From Aureimonas mangrovi (GTDB lineage: Bacteria > Pseudomonadota > Alphaproteobacteria > Rhizobiales > Rhizobiaceae): a DNA stretch of 64,000 bases. The notes beneath the pieces were generated by a model that searched no databases, had not been told where the DNA came from, and saw only the letters and a list, made by a program, of their open reading frames with translations. The translations under genes and the position numbers were made by a program. Each line of letters opens with the position of its first letter. Position 1 is the first letter of the stretch. Of the stretch, positions 8,275-35,579 are shown in pieces. The stretch lies in the NCBI RefSeq assembly GCF_014058705.1, contig NZ_CP059692.1, positions 2,175,001 through 2,239,000 of the forward strand, read 5' to 3'.

Positions 8275-9705
8275 ATGAGCCAGCCGTCTGCAAGCTCGCC
8301 GATCATCCCGGTCATCATGGCGGGAGGGTCCGGTACGCGGCTCTGGCCGGTGTCTCGCGAGACGATGCCCAAGCAGTTCATCGCATTGATGGACGGCGGC
8401 GTATCCACCTTCCAAGAGACACTGAAGCGCGTCACCGGCCCCGGCTTCGCGCTCCCGATCGTCGTTACCGGCAACGACTTCCGCTTCGTCGTCGCCGAGC
8501 AGATGAAGGCCGCCGGCGTCGTCGGCGAGATCGTGCTGGAGCCCGAGCGACGTGATTCGGCCGCGGCTGTCGCGGTCGGTGCGCTTCTCGGCGAGGCGCG
8601 CGACCCGGACGCGGTGTGCCTCGTGCTTGCGGCCGACCACGTCGTTACCGGAGGGGAGGCTTTCGTCGCGGACTGCCTGAAGGCCGCGGAGGCCGCGCGC
8701 GGCGGGCATATCATGACGCTCGGCATCGTGCCGACGCATCCCTCCACCGCCTACGGCTATCTTGAACTCGGCGCGTCGCTCGGCTCGGAAGGCGCCTTCG
8801 TCCTCGAGAGCTTCGTTGAGAAGCCGGACCGCGCCCGCGCCGAGGGCTATGTGGAGCGCGGGCTCCTGTGGAACTGCGGCAACTTCCTTTTCAAGGCAGG
8901 CATCATGCTGGAGGAACTGGAGGCGAACGCGCCCGAAGTGCTGGCGGCGGCTCGCACCGCGCTCGTGGGCGGCGTCCGCGATCTCGACTTTCTTCGACTG
9001 GACGCGGTGGCGTTCGCGGCCGCCCCGAAAATCTCGATCGACTACGCAGTGATGGAAAAGACGCGGCGCGCTGGCGCGGTGCGCGCCTCCTTCGGCTGGT
9101 CGGACATCGGCTCGTGGGATTCCATCTACGACGTGAAGACCCCGGATGCCGACGGCAACGTGCTCGAAGGCCCGGTCTCCGTCCTCGGCACGAGCGGCAG
9201 CCTCGTGCGCTCGGACGGCCCGCTGACGACCGTCGTCGGCCTCAATGACGTCGTGGTGGTCGCGATGCCGGACGCTGTTCTCGTCGCCTCGAAGGACGAG
9301 GCGCCGAAGGTCAAGGACCTCGTCGCCAAGCTCGGCCGCGAGGGCTACGGCGAGGCGACTGACCACTTGCGCATCCACCGTCCCTGGGGCTGGTACCAGC
9401 GGATCGACATCGGAGACCGCTTTCAGGTGAAGCACATCTGTGTGCATCCGGGCGGCACCCTCTCACTGCAGCGCCACCATCACCGCGCCGAGCACTGGGT
9501 CGTCGTCCACGGCACCGCGGAGGTGACGATCGACGGCGTCGTCAAACATTATCACGAGAACGAAGCGGCCTATCTGCCGATCGGATGCACGCATCGCATG
9601 CGCAATCCTGGCAAGATTGATCTCAAGATCATCGAGGTGCAGGTCGGCTCCTATACGGGCGAGGACGACATCGTGCGCCTCGAGGATGTCTACGCGCGGA
9701 CCTAA
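8275..9705 (+). CDS. manC: Mannose-1-phosphate guanylyltransferase / mannose-6-phosphate isomerase (bifunctional)
   Basis: 476 residues, the normal length for the bifunctional ManC/AlgA/XanB family. The nucleotidyltransferase domain starts with PVIMAGGSGTRLWPVSR (about 12-28) and has PKQF and the FVEKP loop. The C-terminal ~115 residues are the type II isomerase cupin, with the metal-binding QRHHHRAEHW and later YLPIGCTHR. It converts mannose-1-P and GTP to GDP-mannose, and probably also interconverts fructose-6-P and mannose-6-P. It is followed 20 bases later by the phosphomannomutase gene, so the pair supplies GDP-mannose to the glycan genes on the other strand. Confidence 0.95.
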   Translation: MSQPSASSPIIPVIMAGGSGTRLWPVSRETMPKQFIALMDGGVSTFQETLKRVTGPGFALPIVVTGNDFRFVVAEQMKAAGVVGEIVLEPERRDSAAAVAVGALLGEARDPDAVCLVLAADHVVTGGEAFVADCLKAAEAARGGHIMTLGIVPTHPSTAYGYLELGASLGSEGAFVLESFVEKPDRARAEGYVERGLLWNCGNFLFKAGIMLEELEANAPEVLAAARTALVGGVRDLDFLRLDAVAFAAAPKISIDYAVMEKTRRAGAVRASFGWSDIGSWDSIYDVKTPDADGNVLEGPVSVLGTSGSLVRSDGPLTTVVGLNDVVVVAMPDAVLVASKDEAPKVKDLVAKLGREGYGEATDHLRIHRPWGWYQRIDIGDRFQVKHICVHPGGTLSLQRHHHRAEHWVVVHGTAEVTIDGVVKHYHENEAAYLPIGCTHRMRNPGKIDLKIIEVQVGSYTGEDDIVRLEDVYART

Positions 9706-27888: not shown

Positions 27889-30800
27889 TCAGGCCAGTTC
27901 GACGTCGAGAATGCCGGGCGCCGCACGGATCGCGCTCGCCATCTGGGGCGAGACGCGGTAGCGTCCGGGCATGGCGATCTCCACCTCCCGCTCGCCCCCG
28001 TCCTGCACGATCACCAGAGAGACGGCACTGTCGCCATCGGTCTTCAGATGCGCCCGCAGGGCTGCCAGCGGCGAGGCGTCGCGCATGAAGACGCGCATCG
28101 AGCTCTGCATCCGCTCCGCCTCCCGCTCCAGCGACTGGACCGACTGAACCCGCAGGGAGATGCCCTCCGGCCTGTCTTCCGCCGAAACCGTGACGATGAC
28201 CGAGCTGCCCGGCTCCAGCATCTCGCGATAGGCGACGAGCGTCTCGGTGAAGAGCACCACCTCGTACTGTCCGGTCGCGTCGGAGAGCTGGACGATGCCG
28301 ATCTTGCCGCCGGTGCGTGTCTTTCGCTCCTGGCGCGAAGTGACCGTGCCGGCCACCCGGCCCGCCGTCGCGCCCTTGCGCACGCTCGCCACCACCTCCT
28401 TGTAGGACTGCACGTTCAGGCGCTTCAGCGCCTTGGCATATTCGTCGAGCGGGTGAGCGGAAAGGTAGAAGCCGATCGACTGATGCTCGCGCATCAGCTT
28501 CTCGGCGCTCGTCCAGATGCCAGGCTGCGTGAAGCGCAGTTTCTCCGGCTCGGCGCCGGCCCCGCCGAACATGTCGTGCTGGTTCGAGGTGCGCCCCTCG
28601 TGCGCCGTCAGCGCATAACCGGCCATGCGCTCCAGATTGGCGCACAGGAGCGCGCGGTCGTGTCCGAAACAATCGAGCGCACCGGCGCAGATCAGATGCT
28701 CCAGCGTGCGCTTGTTGACGATCTTTGGATCGATGCGCGCGCAGAAGTCCTCGAGACTCGCGAAACGGCCGCCCTCTTCGCGCAGCGCCACGATATGATC
28801 CACTGCATGTTCGCCGACGCCCTTGATGGCCGCGAGCGAATAGAGGATGCGCCCCTCCTCCACCTCGAAGGGCCGATACGATGTCTGCACCGAAGGCGCG
28901 ACGATCTCGATGCCGAGGCGCATCGCATCGACGCGGAAATCGTTGAGCTTGTCCGTGTTGCCGCTGTCGAGCGTCATCGAGGCGGCGAGGAACTCGGTGG
29001 CGTGGTTCGCCTTCAGATAAGCCGTCTGGTAGGCGACGAGCGCGTAGGCTGCCGCGTGGCTCTTGTTGAAGCCGTAGTCGGCGAACTTGGCCAGAAGGTC
29101 GAAGATCGTGTTCGCCTGCGCCTTCGCGATGCCGCCCTCCAGCGCGCCTTCGACGAAGCGCACGCGCTGCTTGTCCATCTCCGCGCGAATCTTCTTGCCC
29201 ATCGCGCGGCGCAGGAGATCGGCCTCGCCGAGCGTGTAGCCCGACAGGACCTGGGCGATCTGCATCACCTGTTCCTGATAGACGATCACGCCCTGGGTCT
29301 CGCGCAGGATCGGCTCCATCTTGGGATGGATGATCTCGACATCCTCCTCGCCGTGCTTGCGCGCGTTGTAGACCGGGATGTTTTCCATCGGGCCGGGGCG
29401 GTAGAGCGCCACCAGCGCGATGATGTCCTCGAAACAGTCCGGTCGCATCCCGATCAGCGCCTTGCGCATGCCGACCGATTCCACCTGGAACACGCCGACG
29501 GTCTCGCCGCGCGTCATCATCTCGTAGGTCTTGGCATCGTCGAGCGGCAGCGCACCGAGGTCGAGGGACACGCCCTTTCTAGCGATCAGCGCCACCGCCG
29601 TCTGCAGTGTCGTCAGCGTTTTCAGGCCGAGGAAGTCGAACTTCACGAGCCCGGCCTGCTCGACCCACTTCATGTTGTACTGCGTGACCGGCATGTCGGA
29701 GCGCGGATCGCGGTACATCGGCACGAGCTTGGAGAGCGGACGGTCCCCGATGACGATGCCGGCCGCGTGCGTGGACGCGTGGCGGTAGAGCCCTTCGAGC
29801 TTCAACGCGATCGACAGGAGGCGATCGACGATCTCCTCCTTCTCGCGCGCCTCCTGCAGGCGCGGCTCCTCCTCGATCGCCTGCGCGAGCGTGACGGGGT
29901 TGGCGGGGTTGGCCGGCACCAGCTTGCAGAGCTTGTCGACATGGCCGTAGCTCATCTCGAGCACGCGCCCGACGTCACGCAGGACGGCGCGCGCCTGCAT
30001 CGACCCGAAGGTGATGATCTGCGCCACCTGCTCTCGGCCGTACTTGGCCTGGACGTAGCGGATCACCTCCTCGCGCCGGTCCTGACAGAAGTCGATGTCG
30101 AAGTCGGGCATCGACACGCGGTCCGGGTTGAGGAAGCGCTCGAACAGCAGAGAGAAGCGGAGCGGATCGAGGTCGGTGATGGTCAGCGACCACGCGACGA
30201 GCGAGCCGGCGCCCGAACCGCGGCCCGGGCCCACCGGTATCCCTTGCGCCTTCGCCCATTTGATGAAGTCGGCAACGATCAGGAAGTAGCCGGGAAAGCC
30301 CATCCGCTCGATGACCGAGAGCTCGAAGGCCAGACGCTCGCGATAGTCGTCCTCGCTCTGTCCCGGCGCCGTCCCGTGATAGGAGAGGCGCGCGGCCAGC
30401 CCCTCCTCCGCCTGACGCCGCAACTCGGCGACCTCGGCCCGCTGCGCTTCTTCCGGATCGGCGTCGGCGCCCGCGAAACGCGGCAGGATCGGCTTGCGAG
30501 TGCGCGGACGGAACGAGCAGCGCCGCGCGATCTCGACCGTGTTCGACAGCGCCTCGGGCAGATCGGCGAAGAGCTCGCCCATCTCCTCGGCCGACTTCAG
30601 ACAATGGTCGGGCGTCAGGCGACGGCGATCCTCGTGACTGACGAGACGGTTCTCGGCGACCGCGATCAGCGCGTCATGGGCATCGAAATCTTCGCGTGCG
30701 AAAAAATAGGGCTCGTTGGTCGCCACGAGCGGCAGCTCGAACTCGTAGGCGAGATCGACGATGTCGGCCTCCAGCCGCTGCCAGCGATCGCCGTGACGCT

Positions 30801-31365
30801 GGAGTTCGACATACAGTCTGTCCGCAAATAGCGCCTTCAGCCGCTCCAGCCGCGCGCGCGCCACCGGTTCGCGGCCGGCGTCCAGCGCCGCGTCCACCGG
30901 GCCGAGCGGCCCGCCGGTCAGCGCGATGACGCCTTCGCAGCGTCCTTCCAGCCATTCGGCGAGGATGTGGGGACGCGCGTCGCCGCCATGGGCGAGATAG
31001 GCCATGGAGACGATTTCGACGAGATTGGCGTAGCCCTCTTCCGTCGCGGCGATGAAGGCCATCGGCGCCATGGAAGAGAACGCGTTACGCTCGCGCCCCT
31101 GCCCCGACGGCTCGCCCGCGTCCGAAAAGTCGACGTCGAGCTGGCAGCCGACGATGGGCTGGATCCCGGCCTTGGCCGCCTTCTCCGAGAATTCGAGGGC
31201 CCCGAAGAGATTGTTGGTATCGGCGATACCGATCGCCGGCGCCCCGTCCGCCTTGGCGAACTTGACGATCTGGTCGATGCGCAGCGCGCCTTCCAGAAGA
31301 GAGAAGGCGCTGTGGATGCGCAGATGGATGAAGCCTGGCCCGTTCGCCGCCGTCGCCTCGCCCAT
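27889..31365 (-). CDS. dnaE: DNA polymerase III alpha subunit
   Basis: 1158 residues from the ATG at 31365, which has AAGGG eight bases upstream; the ATG at 31371 is too close. The PHP domain comes first (HLRIHSAFSLLEGALR, IADTNNLFG), then the polymerase core with the active-site motif MPDFDIDFC, the tandem helix-hairpin-helix region (FNKSHAAAYALVAY upstream of it) and an OB fold (AGTVTSRQERKTRTGGKIGIV). The length and N-terminus match replicative DnaE1 rather than the shorter SOS polymerase DnaE2, and no imuA/imuB genes flank it. It ends head to head with dinB, 12 bases apart. Confidence 0.94.
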   Translation of the reverse strand: MGEATAANGPGFIHLRIHSAFSLLEGALRIDQIVKFAKADGAPAIGIADTNNLFGALEFSEKAAKAGIQPIVGCQLDVDFSDAGEPSGQGRERNAFSSMAPMAFIAATEEGYANLVEIVSMAYLAHGGDARPHILAEWLEGRCEGVIALTGGPLGPVDAALDAGREPVARARLERLKALFADRLYVELQRHGDRWQRLEADIVDLAYEFELPLVATNEPYFFAREDFDAHDALIAVAENRLVSHEDRRRLTPDHCLKSAEEMGELFADLPEALSNTVEIARRCSFRPRTRKPILPRFAGADADPEEAQRAEVAELRRQAEEGLAARLSYHGTAPGQSEDDYRERLAFELSVIERMGFPGYFLIVADFIKWAKAQGIPVGPGRGSGAGSLVAWSLTITDLDPLRFSLLFERFLNPDRVSMPDFDIDFCQDRREEVIRYVQAKYGREQVAQIITFGSMQARAVLRDVGRVLEMSYGHVDKLCKLVPANPANPVTLAQAIEEEPRLQEAREKEEIVDRLLSIALKLEGLYRHASTHAAGIVIGDRPLSKLVPMYRDPRSDMPVTQYNMKWVEQAGLVKFDFLGLKTLTTLQTAVALIARKGVSLDLGALPLDDAKTYEMMTRGETVGVFQVESVGMRKALIGMRPDCFEDIIALVALYRPGPMENIPVYNARKHGEEDVEIIHPKMEPILRETQGVIVYQEQVMQIAQVLSGYTLGEADLLRRAMGKKIRAEMDKQRVRFVEGALEGGIAKAQANTIFDLLAKFADYGFNKSHAAAYALVAYQTAYLKANHATEFLAASMTLDSGNTDKLNDFRVDAMRLGIEIVAPSVQTSYRPFEVEEGRILYSLAAIKGVGEHAVDHIVALREEGGRFASLEDFCARIDPKIVNKRTLEHLICAGALDCFGHDRALLCANLERMAGYALTAHEGRTSNQHDMFGGAGAEPEKLRFTQPGIWTSAEKLMREHQSIGFYLSAHPLDEYAKALKRLNVQSYKEVVASVRKGATAGRVAGTVTSRQERKTRTGGKIGIVQLSDATGQYEVVLFTETLVAYREMLEPGSSVIVTVSAEDRPEGISLRVQSVQSLEREAERMQSSMRVFMRDASPLAALRAHLKTDGDSAVSLVIVQDGGEREVEIAMPGRYRVSPQMASAIRAAPGILDVELA

Positions 31366-31537
31366 CGCCATCACCCTTCGCACACATCCAGATACCGGTA
31401 GAGAACTCGACTCGCCACGCCGGCAGACGATCACCCTGCCCGACCGAGATGCATTTGTCGTGCCACCGCGCCGCGTGGTCCACGCATTCCACAGCGCGCG
31501 ACCTGCATCGAGACCGGGTACGCAACCGTGAAAATGA

Positions 31538-31621
31538 TTAGACGACGGTCGCGAAAAGGCTGAAGCAGAGGACGAAGGCCGAGATCGCGGCGAGAGAGGC
31601 GCATTCCTTGACGAGCAGCAT
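31538..31621 (-). CDS. Very small single-span membrane peptide under LexA control
   Basis: 27 residues (MLLVKECASLAAISAFVLCF...) from the ATG at 31621, which has GGAG nine bases upstream. An in-frame ATG at 31651 would give 37 residues (MNIDKPENSP added), but it has no ribosome binding site and overlaps the LexA box. Most of the peptide is one hydrophobic segment, starting with charged KE. It lies between the DNA polymerase III gene and the LexA box. Size, membrane segment and SOS control are like SidA of Caulobacter (29 residues, blocks division through FtsW/FtsN). Whether it has that role, or any sequence relation, cannot be judged from this window. Confidence 0.6.
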   Translation of the reverse strand: MLLVKECASLAAISAFVLCFSLFATVV

Positions 31622-31645
31622 CGGACTGTTCTCCGGTTTGTCGAT

Positions 31646-31660
31646 GTTCATGTTTTGTTC
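31646..31660 (-). promoter_or_regulatory. LexA box (GTTC-N7-GTTC), perfect match
   Basis: GTTC at 31646-31649 and GTTC at 31657-31660, seven bases apart (GAAC-N7-GAAC on the transcribed strand). This is exactly the direct repeat bound by LexA in rhizobia and other alphaproteobacteria. A TTGACT box lies on the minus strand at about 31670-31675, so the LexA box falls on the -10/+1 region, as expected for repression of the small peptide gene. Confidence 0.75.
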
Positions 31661-31676
31661 TAGTGCGACTGAAGAG

Positions 31677-31922
31677 TCAACCCTCGTCGTCCTCGTCCCC
31701 GCCGTTTGCCTCCAAGCCCCCTGTCTCCCTGCTTTCCAGCGCCTTGTCGCGCCGGGCCTCTGCGCGCTCCAGGAGTTTCGCGAGTGACGATCCGCTGCTC
31801 CCAGCGGCACGGCTCTCGAGGCGCCTGAGCACCAGCAGTTCGAATGCATGACGGGCGCGTACCGCCTCCACCGCCCTGCGCTGGGCGGCGATGCGGCGGG
31901 CGAGCGGGTCGCCCTCCGTCAC
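31677..31922 (-). CDS. Possible small charged protein, uncertain
   Basis: 81 codons from a GTG at 31922 (GGGGA five bases upstream). The translation is strongly helical and charged (ARRIAAQRRAVEAVRARHAF) and ends in GGDEDDEG. Its codons end mostly in G or C, but with more rare choices (AGG, ACA, TTG) than neighbouring genes. The stop codon overlaps the TTGACT box of the LexA-controlled promoter. It may be a real small gene or only an open frame; the frame also stays open further upstream. Confidence 0.3.
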   Translation of the reverse strand: MTEGDPLARRIAAQRRAVEAVRARHAFELLVLRRLESRAAGSSGSSLAKLLERAEARRDKALESRETGGLEANGGDEDDEG

Positions 31923-32093
31923 GGTCGTCCCCGCCCAGCGGAGACGCGCGATACGGTGTCGTTCAAGAAAAGACTGGCCTTGTCTGCGCGGAATGTCGTA
32001 GCGACCGCACGAGAACGCGCGATCGATGTCGGCCGGAAAGGTCGGCGGCTGGCCCATCCCGAAGGGCGCGACGCGCCCAATGCGGAGGAAATG

Positions 32094-32633
32094 ATGGGAG
32101 CGCTGCTCTTGTTCAGCCGGTCCGTGGATCGGCTGAACGCCGGATTTGCGGTCATCGCGGAATACATGGTCCTTGCTGCGGTGCTGATCAGCGGCGGAAA
32201 CGCGCTCCTGCGCTACACGCTCAATATCAGTTCGAACGGCGCGATCGAGATCCAGTGGTATCTTCTCGCCGGCATGGTGCTTCTGGGCTCGGCCTATACG
32301 CTGCGCATGAACGAACATGTGCGCGTGGACCTCATCTATTCCACGCTCGCGCCGCGCACGCGTCTCTATGTCGACATCATCGGCTTCGCCGTCCTGTTCC
32401 TCCCAGTCGTCGGATACCTGTTCAGCCTGTGCTGGCCGTTCTTCTGGCGCTCGTTCATCTCGGGGGAAACGTCGATGAACGCGGGCGGGCTGATCCTGTG
32501 GCCGGCGAAGGCGGCGCTGCCGCTCGGCTTCGGCCTCCTGTTCCTGCAGGGCCTTTCGGAGCTCATCAAGCGCTTTGCCGCGCTCGCCGGGCTGATCGAG
32601 CTCGAAACGAAGTACGAAAAGCCTCTTCAGTAG
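32094..32633 (+). CDS. TRAP transporter small permease subunit (DctQ type)
   Basis: 179 residues from the ATG at 32094, five bases after GGAGG; a frame open since 31848 is not supported. There are four membrane segments, as usual for DctQ, and the family's conserved region EIQWYLLAGMVLLGSAYTLRMNEHVRVDLIY between the second and third. The protein works with DctM in sodium-driven uptake of organic acids or similar anions. It is followed 23 bases later by the dctM-type gene. The long second loop (PFFWRSFISGETSMNAGG) fits the mannitol/chloroaromatic subgroup. Confidence 0.9.
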   Translation: MGALLLFSRSVDRLNAGFAVIAEYMVLAAVLISGGNALLRYTLNISSNGAIEIQWYLLAGMVLLGSAYTLRMNEHVRVDLIYSTLAPRTRLYVDIIGFAVLFLPVVGYLFSLCWPFFWRSFISGETSMNAGGLILWPAKAALPLGFGLLFLQGLSELIKRFAALAGLIELETKYEKPLQ

Positions 32634-32656
32634 GCCGCAGACCGGAGGGGTCGCTC

Positions 32657-34198
<1,542 letters not shown>

Positions 34199-34212
34199 CG
34201 CGCCCAAAAGAA

Positions 34213-34240
34213 GAGGCCGGCGGATCGCTCCGCCGGCCTC
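34213..34240. terminator. Bidirectional terminator, dctM / dctP type genes
   Basis: A 12-base-pair perfect stem (34213-34224 with 34229-34240) with a TCGC loop is flanked by AAAAGAA on the left and TTTTCTT on the right. It ends both the dctM-type gene (plus) and the dctP-type gene (minus). Confidence 0.93.
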
Positions 34241-34269
34241 TTTTCTTGTGCCTCGATGCTGCCCGCCGC

Positions 34270-35373
34270 CTAGCGTCCGGCAGCCTGCTGCGCATAGGCG
34301 TAGCTGTCGTTGGTGAACTCGGCGACGCGGAACCATTCGTAGCTCTGCGTGCGGAACTCGTTCCACGGGTCGAAGATCTTCTTCCAGTTCTCGTTGGTCT
34401 CGTCGAGTTGCCGATAGAGGTTCTGCGCCGAATCGTAGGCGGCGTCGAGAACGTCGCGCGGCAGGGGGCGAAGCTGGGCGCCCTTGCCGACGAGCGAGCG
34501 GATCGCGCGCATGTTCTTCACGTCGTAATCGGCGGTCATGTCGAGGTTCGCGGCCATGGAAGCCGTCTCCAGCGCGGCCTTGTATGAGTCCGGCAGGCCA
34601 TCGAACTGCTCGCGGTTGAAGATGTAGTGGACCGTCGGCCCGGCCTCCCAGAAGGCGGGGTAATAGTAGTAGGGCGCAACCTGATAGAAGCCGAGCTTCT
34701 CGTCATCGTAGGGGCCGACGAACTCGGTCGCGTCCAGCGTGCCGCGCTCCAGCGCCGGATAGACGTCGCCGCCGGCAAGCTGCTGGCCGACGACGCCGAG
34801 CGGCTGGAGCACCTGTCCCGCGATGCCCGCGATGCGCATCTTCAGGCCCTGCAGGTCGGCGACCGAGTTGATTTCGTTGCGGAACCAGCCGCCCATCTGC
34901 GTGCCGGTGTTGCCGCCGGGGCGCGCCGTCACGTTGTAGGACTGCAGGAACTCGTCGATCAGTTCGTTGCCGCCACCGTGATAAAGCCAGGCGTTCTGCT
35001 GGCGCGCGTTCAGGCCGAAGGGAATCGCCGAGCCGATGGCGAAGGTCGGATCCTTGCCGACATAGTAGTAGAGGACGGAGTGCGCGGCCTCGACCGTGCC
35101 GTCCTGCACCGCGTCGAGCGCGGAAAGGCCCGGCACCAGTTCACCCGCCGGGAAGAGCTGGATGGTGAACTGCCCCTCCGTGATGTCCGAAACCATCTGG
35201 GCGAAGCGCTGCGAGGCGCCGAAGAGCGTGTCGAGCGTGTTCGGGAAACTCGAGGTCATGCGCCAGCGGATGCGCGGGCGCTCCTGGGCGATCGCCGGAG
35301 CGGCAAGTGCGACGCTGGCCGCCGCGCCGCCCGAGACAATGCCGGCCTGCTTGAAGAATTGGCGACGATCCAC
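34270..35373 (-). CDS. TRAP transporter substrate-binding protein (DctP family) with Tat signal
   Basis: 367 residues from the GTG at 35373, eight bases after GGAGG. The N-terminus VDRRQFFKQAG is a twin-arginine signal followed by a hydrophobic segment cut after AIAQ, so the protein is exported folded. The mature part has the DctP pattern (FAQMVSDITEGQFTIQLFPAGEL, GTQMGGWFRNEI, LKMRIAGIAGQVLQPLGV). Proteins of this group often bind 2-oxo acids. It delivers the ligand to the permease encoded convergently next to it. Confidence 0.92.
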   Translation of the reverse strand: MDRRQFFKQAGIVSGGAAASVALAAPAIAQERPRIRWRMTSSFPNTLDTLFGASQRFAQMVSDITEGQFTIQLFPAGELVPGLSALDAVQDGTVEAAHSVLYYYVGKDPTFAIGSAIPFGLNARQQNAWLYHGGGNELIDEFLQSYNVTARPGGNTGTQMGGWFRNEINSVADLQGLKMRIAGIAGQVLQPLGVVGQQLAGGDVYPALERGTLDATEFVGPYDDEKLGFYQVAPYYYYPAFWEAGPTVHYIFNREQFDGLPDSYKAALETASMAANLDMTADYDVKNMRAIRSLVGKGAQLRPLPRDVLDAAYDSAQNLYRQLDETNENWKKIFDPWNEFRTQSYEWFRVAEFTNDSYAYAQQAAGR

Positions 35374-35579
35374 CTGGATTTCCTCCCATGCTGGGCCGAT
35401 CTCGCGCCGGCCGTGAAACGGCCGGATACAAGCGGAAGCGGCCCTGCCGCACAAGTGGACGGATCGCATTTTCGCCGTTCTTTCGATCCGAGGAGCTCGC
35501 CAGACGATTCCGAAGGGTTTCCACCACTTTGCGAGATCTCTATCGTTTTCGCGGCGAGAGAGAAGAAAGGCATTCCCGG

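Follow-up and report, generated by a model that had tools for sequence, protein, structure and literature searches.

SidA of Caulobacter crescentus is described as a 29-residue inner-membrane peptide that is induced in the SOS response and inhibits cell division through interaction with FtsW (PMC4211646). Constitutive expression of sidA is reported to underlie the filamentation of delta-lexA cells (PMC12700426), and its annotated start codon is among those listed as corrected via ribosome profiling (PMC4117421). Caulobacter has a further small, single-pass, damage-induced division inhibitor, DidA, which is likewise described as acting via the FtsW/I/N complex; by that description it is set apart from the peptide studied here, having 71 residues and being SOS-independent, and the ftsW allele A246T is reported to suppress it (PMC4211646). 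In Escherichia coli, TisB and DinQ are SOS-induced small membrane peptides, although by their descriptions they act as toxic or depolarising peptides. The SOS-induced division inhibitors of Gram-positive bacteria, YneA and SosA, are larger proteins. The box described for Bacillus subtilis and Staphylococcus aureus, CGAACN4GTTCG, also differs from the one considered below (PMC9578287). Closest in position is sORF25 of Sinorhizobium meliloti, a new small frame in the dnaE1 5' UTR reported from Ribo-seq and proteogenomics (PMC10117765), and our guess is that it belongs to a SidA-like family. Among the literature matches listed, titles and abstract openings named no inhibitor of division under SOS control in rhizobia or related bacteria, reported no SidA relatives beyond Caulobacter, and described no small gene with a LexA box on one side and dnaE on the other, prior mention of the last two being possible. 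The SidA kind is already known; what appears to be new is how far it reaches, how much it has diverged, and that the site ahead of dnaE is reassigned.

In this study, we examine a small frame within a 64,000-nucleotide stretch of the Aureimonas mangrovi genome, the whole of which is called the window. Its product, of 27 residues against the 29 of SidA (NCBIfam NF033228), shares with SidA the slot before dnaE, a GAAC-N7-GAAC box, one membrane segment, and a core motif. The window peptide differs in its diverged C-terminal half and in having no NF033228 match listed. We hold it quite probable, from the sequence comparisons and by analogy with SidA, that the frame is a LexA-repressed gene encoding an inner-membrane SidA homologue that would inhibit FtsW-dependent division.

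The frame occupies 31538..31621 on the minus strand, where ATG 31621 opens 27 codons, encoding MLLVKECASLAAISAFVLCFSLFATVV, that end at a TAA stop (31540-31538); it is called from the open frame, its conservation, codon constraint, and profile matches. A Shine-Dalgarno-like GGAG at 31631..31634, on the same strand, is separated from the ATG by 9 nt. After K5-E6 the peptide is hydrophobic and makes up one membrane segment, as read from the sequence itself rather than from a dedicated membrane predictor, and by eye it contains one K and one E and hence no strong net charge. Its length and single segment place it within the size and membrane range of a broad SidA-like family (about 29 residues). 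The earlier note on this DNA had described an ATG frame with a good GGAG site that was nearly all hydrophobic, which is what we find, and had allowed a length of 27 or 37 residues, of which the shorter stands. The alternative ATG of the 37-residue reading (31649..31651, minus strand) was rejected because it is not conserved, an in-frame ATG 30 nt ahead of the conserved start being present in 0 of 19 same-genus loci, because it falls within the LexA box, and because the transcription start inferred from a TTGACT element, expected near 31645, comes after ATG 31651.

The next gene downstream is dnaE, for the DNA polymerase III alpha subunit (27889..31371, minus strand), whose product matches TIGR00594 at 1180 bits; its start at ATG 31371 is our choice, and the listed open reading frame begins at GTG 31434. 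The peptide frame lies about 170 nt ahead of it on the same strand. Divergent plus-strand frames begin near 31844, and those at 31848-35469, the first of which are divergent from the peptide, presumably encode TRAP transporter membrane and binding proteins, which they resemble.

Conservation within the genus bears directly on whether the frame is a gene. The 37-residue query matched 24 of 61 genomes at E<=1, its own genome counted, and these included 19 of the 20 other same-genus genomes, G008 being the exception. At all 19 of these loci a dnaE N-terminal match lay within the fetched flank, and the conserved start was the second methionine of the 37-residue reading. An exact GAAC-N7-GAAC preceded the frame in 18 of the 19 (all except L006), with two copies in 10. 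Among the 20 genus frames, all but one of the 190 pairs (189) had a pN lower than their pS (mean pS 0.58, mean pN 0.27), and differences at codon positions 1, 2, and 3 numbered 2029, 840, and 2600; the 190 pairs share ancestry and are therefore not independent. Between the window and its nearest relative, L002, pS was 0.55 and pN 0.16. When substitutions were placed at random in six close pairs, amino acid changes as few as those observed arose in 0, 0, 1, 0, 9, and 78 of 2000 trials. The earlier note had staked its reading on frame and box being conserved in sister genomes with changes biased to synonymous ones, and both are borne out. At the level of sequence, these comparisons establish the frame as a gene under amino acid constraint with an operator-type site ahead of it.

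That site, GAACAAAACATGAAC, is an exact direct repeat GAAC-N7-GAAC at 31646..31660 on the minus strand, 24 nt ahead of the peptide ATG; read on the plus strand it is the perfect GTTC-N7-GTTC directly upstream of the frame to which the earlier note had pointed. By itself a loose box proves nothing, since the window holds 2 where 1.63 are expected by chance. The other, GTTCGCCTCCAGTTC, at 8914-8928 on the minus strand, is probably a chance occurrence, its spacer lacking the A-rich consensus. Genome-wide, the loose box occurs at 110 sites, as compared to 35 for the same pattern read backwards. A stricter consensus, GAACAWAANNNGAAC, which was defined after the family boxes had been inspected, has 2 sites in the 3.49 Mb genome and 0 in the control: the peptide box and one about 100 nt ahead of a UvrA-like frame, which we take to be UvrA by the look of its translation. 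The latter site is GAACATAAAGAGAAC, at 1501-1515 of locus L313, where frames on the opposite strand are presumably VOC-like and Ssb-like, again judging from their translations. A LexA match in the genome also exceeds the cut-off of TIGR00498, and 48 nt ahead of it stands an exact loose box, GAACACAAACAGAAC. From the strict-consensus scan and the box ahead of lexA, the window box is likely of the organism's own SOS type.

A likely -35 element, TTGACT, lies at 31675..31680 on the minus strand, its TTGAC beginning 20 nt before the box starts, a spacing that recurs in the family; a possible, weak -10, CAAAAC, would fall inside the box at 31652..31657 (minus strand), 17 nt from the -35. Across 97 exact-box regions, TTGAC occurred within 60 nt ahead of the box in 65, as compared to 10 hits in control stretches; 43 hits had a spacing of 9-10 nt, and 9 had the 20 nt seen in the window. 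From these positions, LexA bound at the box would overlap the promoter. A scan of 31300-31760 for E. coli-type promoters and terminators found none, and a search of the genome for TTG-N12-box returned 0 sites, the chosen spacing being one that does not fit the peptide site. By its sequence, the box is probably the LexA operator of the peptide gene, which LexA would bind.

To reach the sidA slot of Caulobacter, we used Caulobacter ParB, read from a PDB alignment, because MipZ matches in the A. mangrovi genome looked ParA-like. This gave 22 named loci and 20 genomes searched for dnaE, which was present in 19. The Caulobacter-type set comprised 16 loci, leaving out L218, which is cut short, and L222 and L232, which are not of Caulobacter type; L222 (Chenggangzhangella) has both a box and a family-like frame, and L232 (Neomegalonema) has neither ahead of dnaE. 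In 15 of the 16 an ATG frame precedes dnaE and the last 29 residues are alike, L225 having no ATG frame. The exact box, GAACATCTTGTGAAC, is present in 13 of 16; at L229, L230, and L231 a SidA frame is present with no exact LexA box upstream. The gene in this slot was recognised as sidA through the NCBIfam model NF033228, "cell division inhibitor SidA", which the C. vibrioides peptide (L228) matches end to end with 72.4 bits and E 2e-20. The window peptide occupies the same slot, in the order LexA box, small membrane peptide, and dnaE. NF033228 was not among the matches listed for it or for 5 further relatives, within a limit of E 10 and with matches above about 0.1 mostly filtered, and Pfam listed no family for the 8 peptides tested. 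The window peptide thus falls outside the SidA equivalog as defined by the curated cut-off of 35 bits, and for lack of this match we call it a homologue and not a SidA equivalog.

The connection between the two is made by a family spread over the order. Up to 900 nt upstream of dnaE were taken from 100 order genomes, picked from the roughly 150 dnaE places listed, dnaE having matched in 292 of 297 order genomes; a few regions are shortened by contig ends, and the set leans to closer relatives because it was taken down the dnaE-similarity ranking with some entries skipped by hand. A second set of 106 regions, from the class outside the order, consists of the higher-ranked dnaE places of the 271 genomes, out of 289, that matched. 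The exact GAAC-N7-GAAC stood on the dnaE strand in 65 of 100 order regions and in the opposite orientation in 9, and spacers of 3-6 and 8-12 on the same strand occurred in 1-9 regions, as against 65 for spacer 7. The corresponding figures in the class set were 13 of 106 for spacer 7, 5 for the opposite orientation, and 0-5 for other spacings.

An order profile was built from 57 peptides chosen for having a box upstream, with Caulobacter and the window genus left out and one wrong frame (G154) kept in. Run against 225 small hydrophobic frames, the training frames included, it found SidA at E 7.9e-6 and the window peptide at E 1.4e-3, while the first unrelated-looking frame came at E 0.13 and shuffled SidA at E 8.5. 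At E<=0.05, 61 of the 100 order regions contained a family frame reading in the dnaE direction and 0 contained one on the opposite strand, the 61 being a lower bound since frames that exceed 80 residues through an upstream open frame are missed by the scan. Between 70 and 250 nt before the stop of these 61 frames, 52 carried an exact box and 9 a one-mismatch box, as compared to 0 exact and 4 one-mismatch boxes when the stretch 320-500 nt upstream of the stop was taken as control; the 52 are partly circular, the profile peptides having been chosen by their box, a circularity that does not touch the class set or the 9 cases with one mismatch. The same scan left 13 order regions with an exact box and no family frame, and 26 with neither. 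In the class set, on which the profile was not trained, 10 of 106 regions had a family frame, all 10 with an exact box and a control count of 0, and 3 had the box alone and 93 neither; with the database size set to 10000, three of these ten frames gave weak matches, at E 0.028, 0.028, and 0.048. Alignment of profiles by hhalign linked genus to order (E 1e-8, probability 96%) and order to Caulobacter (E 2.7e-5, probability 74%), and linked genus to Caulobacter directly only weakly (E 0.0037, probability 9%). As judged by these profiles, the link from the genus peptide to Caulobacter SidA runs through the order-wide family.

A loose core, [RKQ][DE]x3[LFVMIAG]x2[LVIM]x2[FLV], was present in 89 of 104 profile-called family frames and 0 of 117 other small hydrophobic frames, and a strict core, [KR]E-x3-[LF]-x2-[IV]-x2-F, in 74 and 0, respectively; the strict form is matched by the window peptide as well as by SidA of C. 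vibrioides. Conservation along the peptide was periodic, with a peak at 105 degrees per residue that fits one helical face and that 71 of 5000 shuffles reached; because the core was derived from the family, anchoring on it makes the periodicity partly circular. A W common in the order peptides is absent from the window peptide, and the C-terminal half differs from that of SidA.

Three smaller profiles were also made: A1 from 18 genus peptides plus one from G059, A2 from 10 Caulobacter-type peptides, and A3 from 35 hand-picked order peptides. At E<=0.1, A1 had matches in 31 of the 297 order genomes, many of them weak. In a whole-genome search at E<=0.01, A3 matched 148 of 297 order genomes, in 63 of 123 genera, and left 149 without a match; the search is less than fully sensitive, since the A. 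mangrovi genome and G059 carry the peptide and went unmatched. Nine genomes gave two A3 matches each (G120, G122, G151, G211, G218, G292, G299, G309, and G328), four of them from family f44, and these second matches are possibly paralogues or weak second hits. The SidA-like character proposed in the earlier note is supported by the shared sidA slot and by the profiles, mostly via the order-wide family. Its description of a peptide of the organism's own was too narrow, as relatives are spread over the order and are present in Caulobacter.

Where the peptide has moved away from dnaE, one can ask whose operator the box is. Among 102 order genomes with both places listed, the A3 match lay within 1.2 kb of dnaE in 91 and elsewhere in 11; 43 further A3-matched genomes have no listed dnaE place and stand outside this count. 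Seven of the 11 are all seven sampled genomes of one genus, g43, in which the peptide and dnaE lie on different contigs or 0.7 Mb apart, and which represents a natural relocation of the box-peptide unit. The exact box is retained at 7 of 7 relocated loci (L347-L353), and the four dnaE upstream regions examined, of seven (G141, G172, G265, and G301), have no exact box within 900 nt. The peptide in this genus is of the type MTDLVQDVVSLVCMSTFLISMAIWIGAM, and 4 of the 7 loci carry two overlapping boxes 11 nt apart. Of 20 fetched loci not paired with a listed dnaE, 18 have an exact box within 170 nt (the exceptions being L355 and L361), and at least 6 of the 20 show a dnaE-like frame downstream by eye. 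Since g43 kept the box at the relocated peptide and shows none in the four dnaE regions looked at, the operator follows the peptide, and we reject the view that the box serves dnaE alone. The SOS site that has been reported for dnaE would then belong to the small intervening gene, and we infer that a sidA-type operator was taken for a dnaE operator. Co-regulation of dnaE by read-through is possible.

The same relocation weighs on a related explanation, in which the frame is an upstream leader whose translation regulates dnaE, with the LexA box as the dnaE operator. The frame does precede dnaE with no terminator-like site found between them in the scan of 31300-31760, and the small Sinorhizobium frame in the dnaE1 5' UTR is discussed as a possible uORF (PMC10117765). 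However, the relocated g43 peptides keep their boxes while the dnaE regions examined lack them, the distance from stop to dnaE varies from 61 to 643 nt within the family, and the amino acid sequence is constrained and profile-linked to SidA, all of which make a leader role very improbable. That a chance frame happens to sit beside a chance box is next to inconceivable: the loose box is indeed no rarer than expected in the window and common in the genome, but frame and box are conserved together, the codons are constrained, and the spacing and strand controls and the family profile speak against chance.

The frame could instead encode a membrane peptide of this family that is under LexA control but acts on a target other than FtsW, such as the membrane potential or another envelope enzyme. 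The hhalign match to SidA covers only some 18-20 N-terminal columns, the C-terminal halves differ among clades, and DinQ and TisB are described as small SOS membrane peptides with other actions; we consider this reading unlikely, though more probable than the leader. Against it are the homology and slot held in common with SidA, the strict core that fits both the window peptide and C. vibrioides SidA, and the single K and E, which by eye give no strong net charge.

Under the preferred reading, that of a SidA homologue directed at FtsW, LexA at the box would block the promoter of the peptide gene. Upon damage, RecA would become active and LexA would undergo self-cleavage, and the promoter with its operator at 31646-31660 would open. 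The peptide would then insert into the inner membrane, placing K5-E6, a basic-acidic pair, at the cytoplasmic rim, and its conserved helical face may bind the FtsW/FtsI/FtsN complex, as SidA does, such that septum synthesis would be held until repair. The first half of this scheme draws on the sequence and on the known LexA system, and the second half, including topology, target, and division arrest, on the analogy with SidA.

Taken over the whole family, we consider it rather likely that SidA is no peculiarity of Caulobacter but one branch of a checkpoint peptide that is old and widespread in alphaproteobacteria and has gone largely unrecognised, and that the LexA site which surveys of alphaproteobacteria gave to dnaE is the operator of this hidden gene. 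A gene of 27-33 codons, mostly before dnaE, would provide a concrete candidate for an SOS division inhibitor in many species, and about 85 distinct natural variants are now at hand of what may be an FtsW-directed helix. If this is true, rhizobia and their kin would stop division after DNA damage by means of a shared FtsW-directed transmembrane helix.
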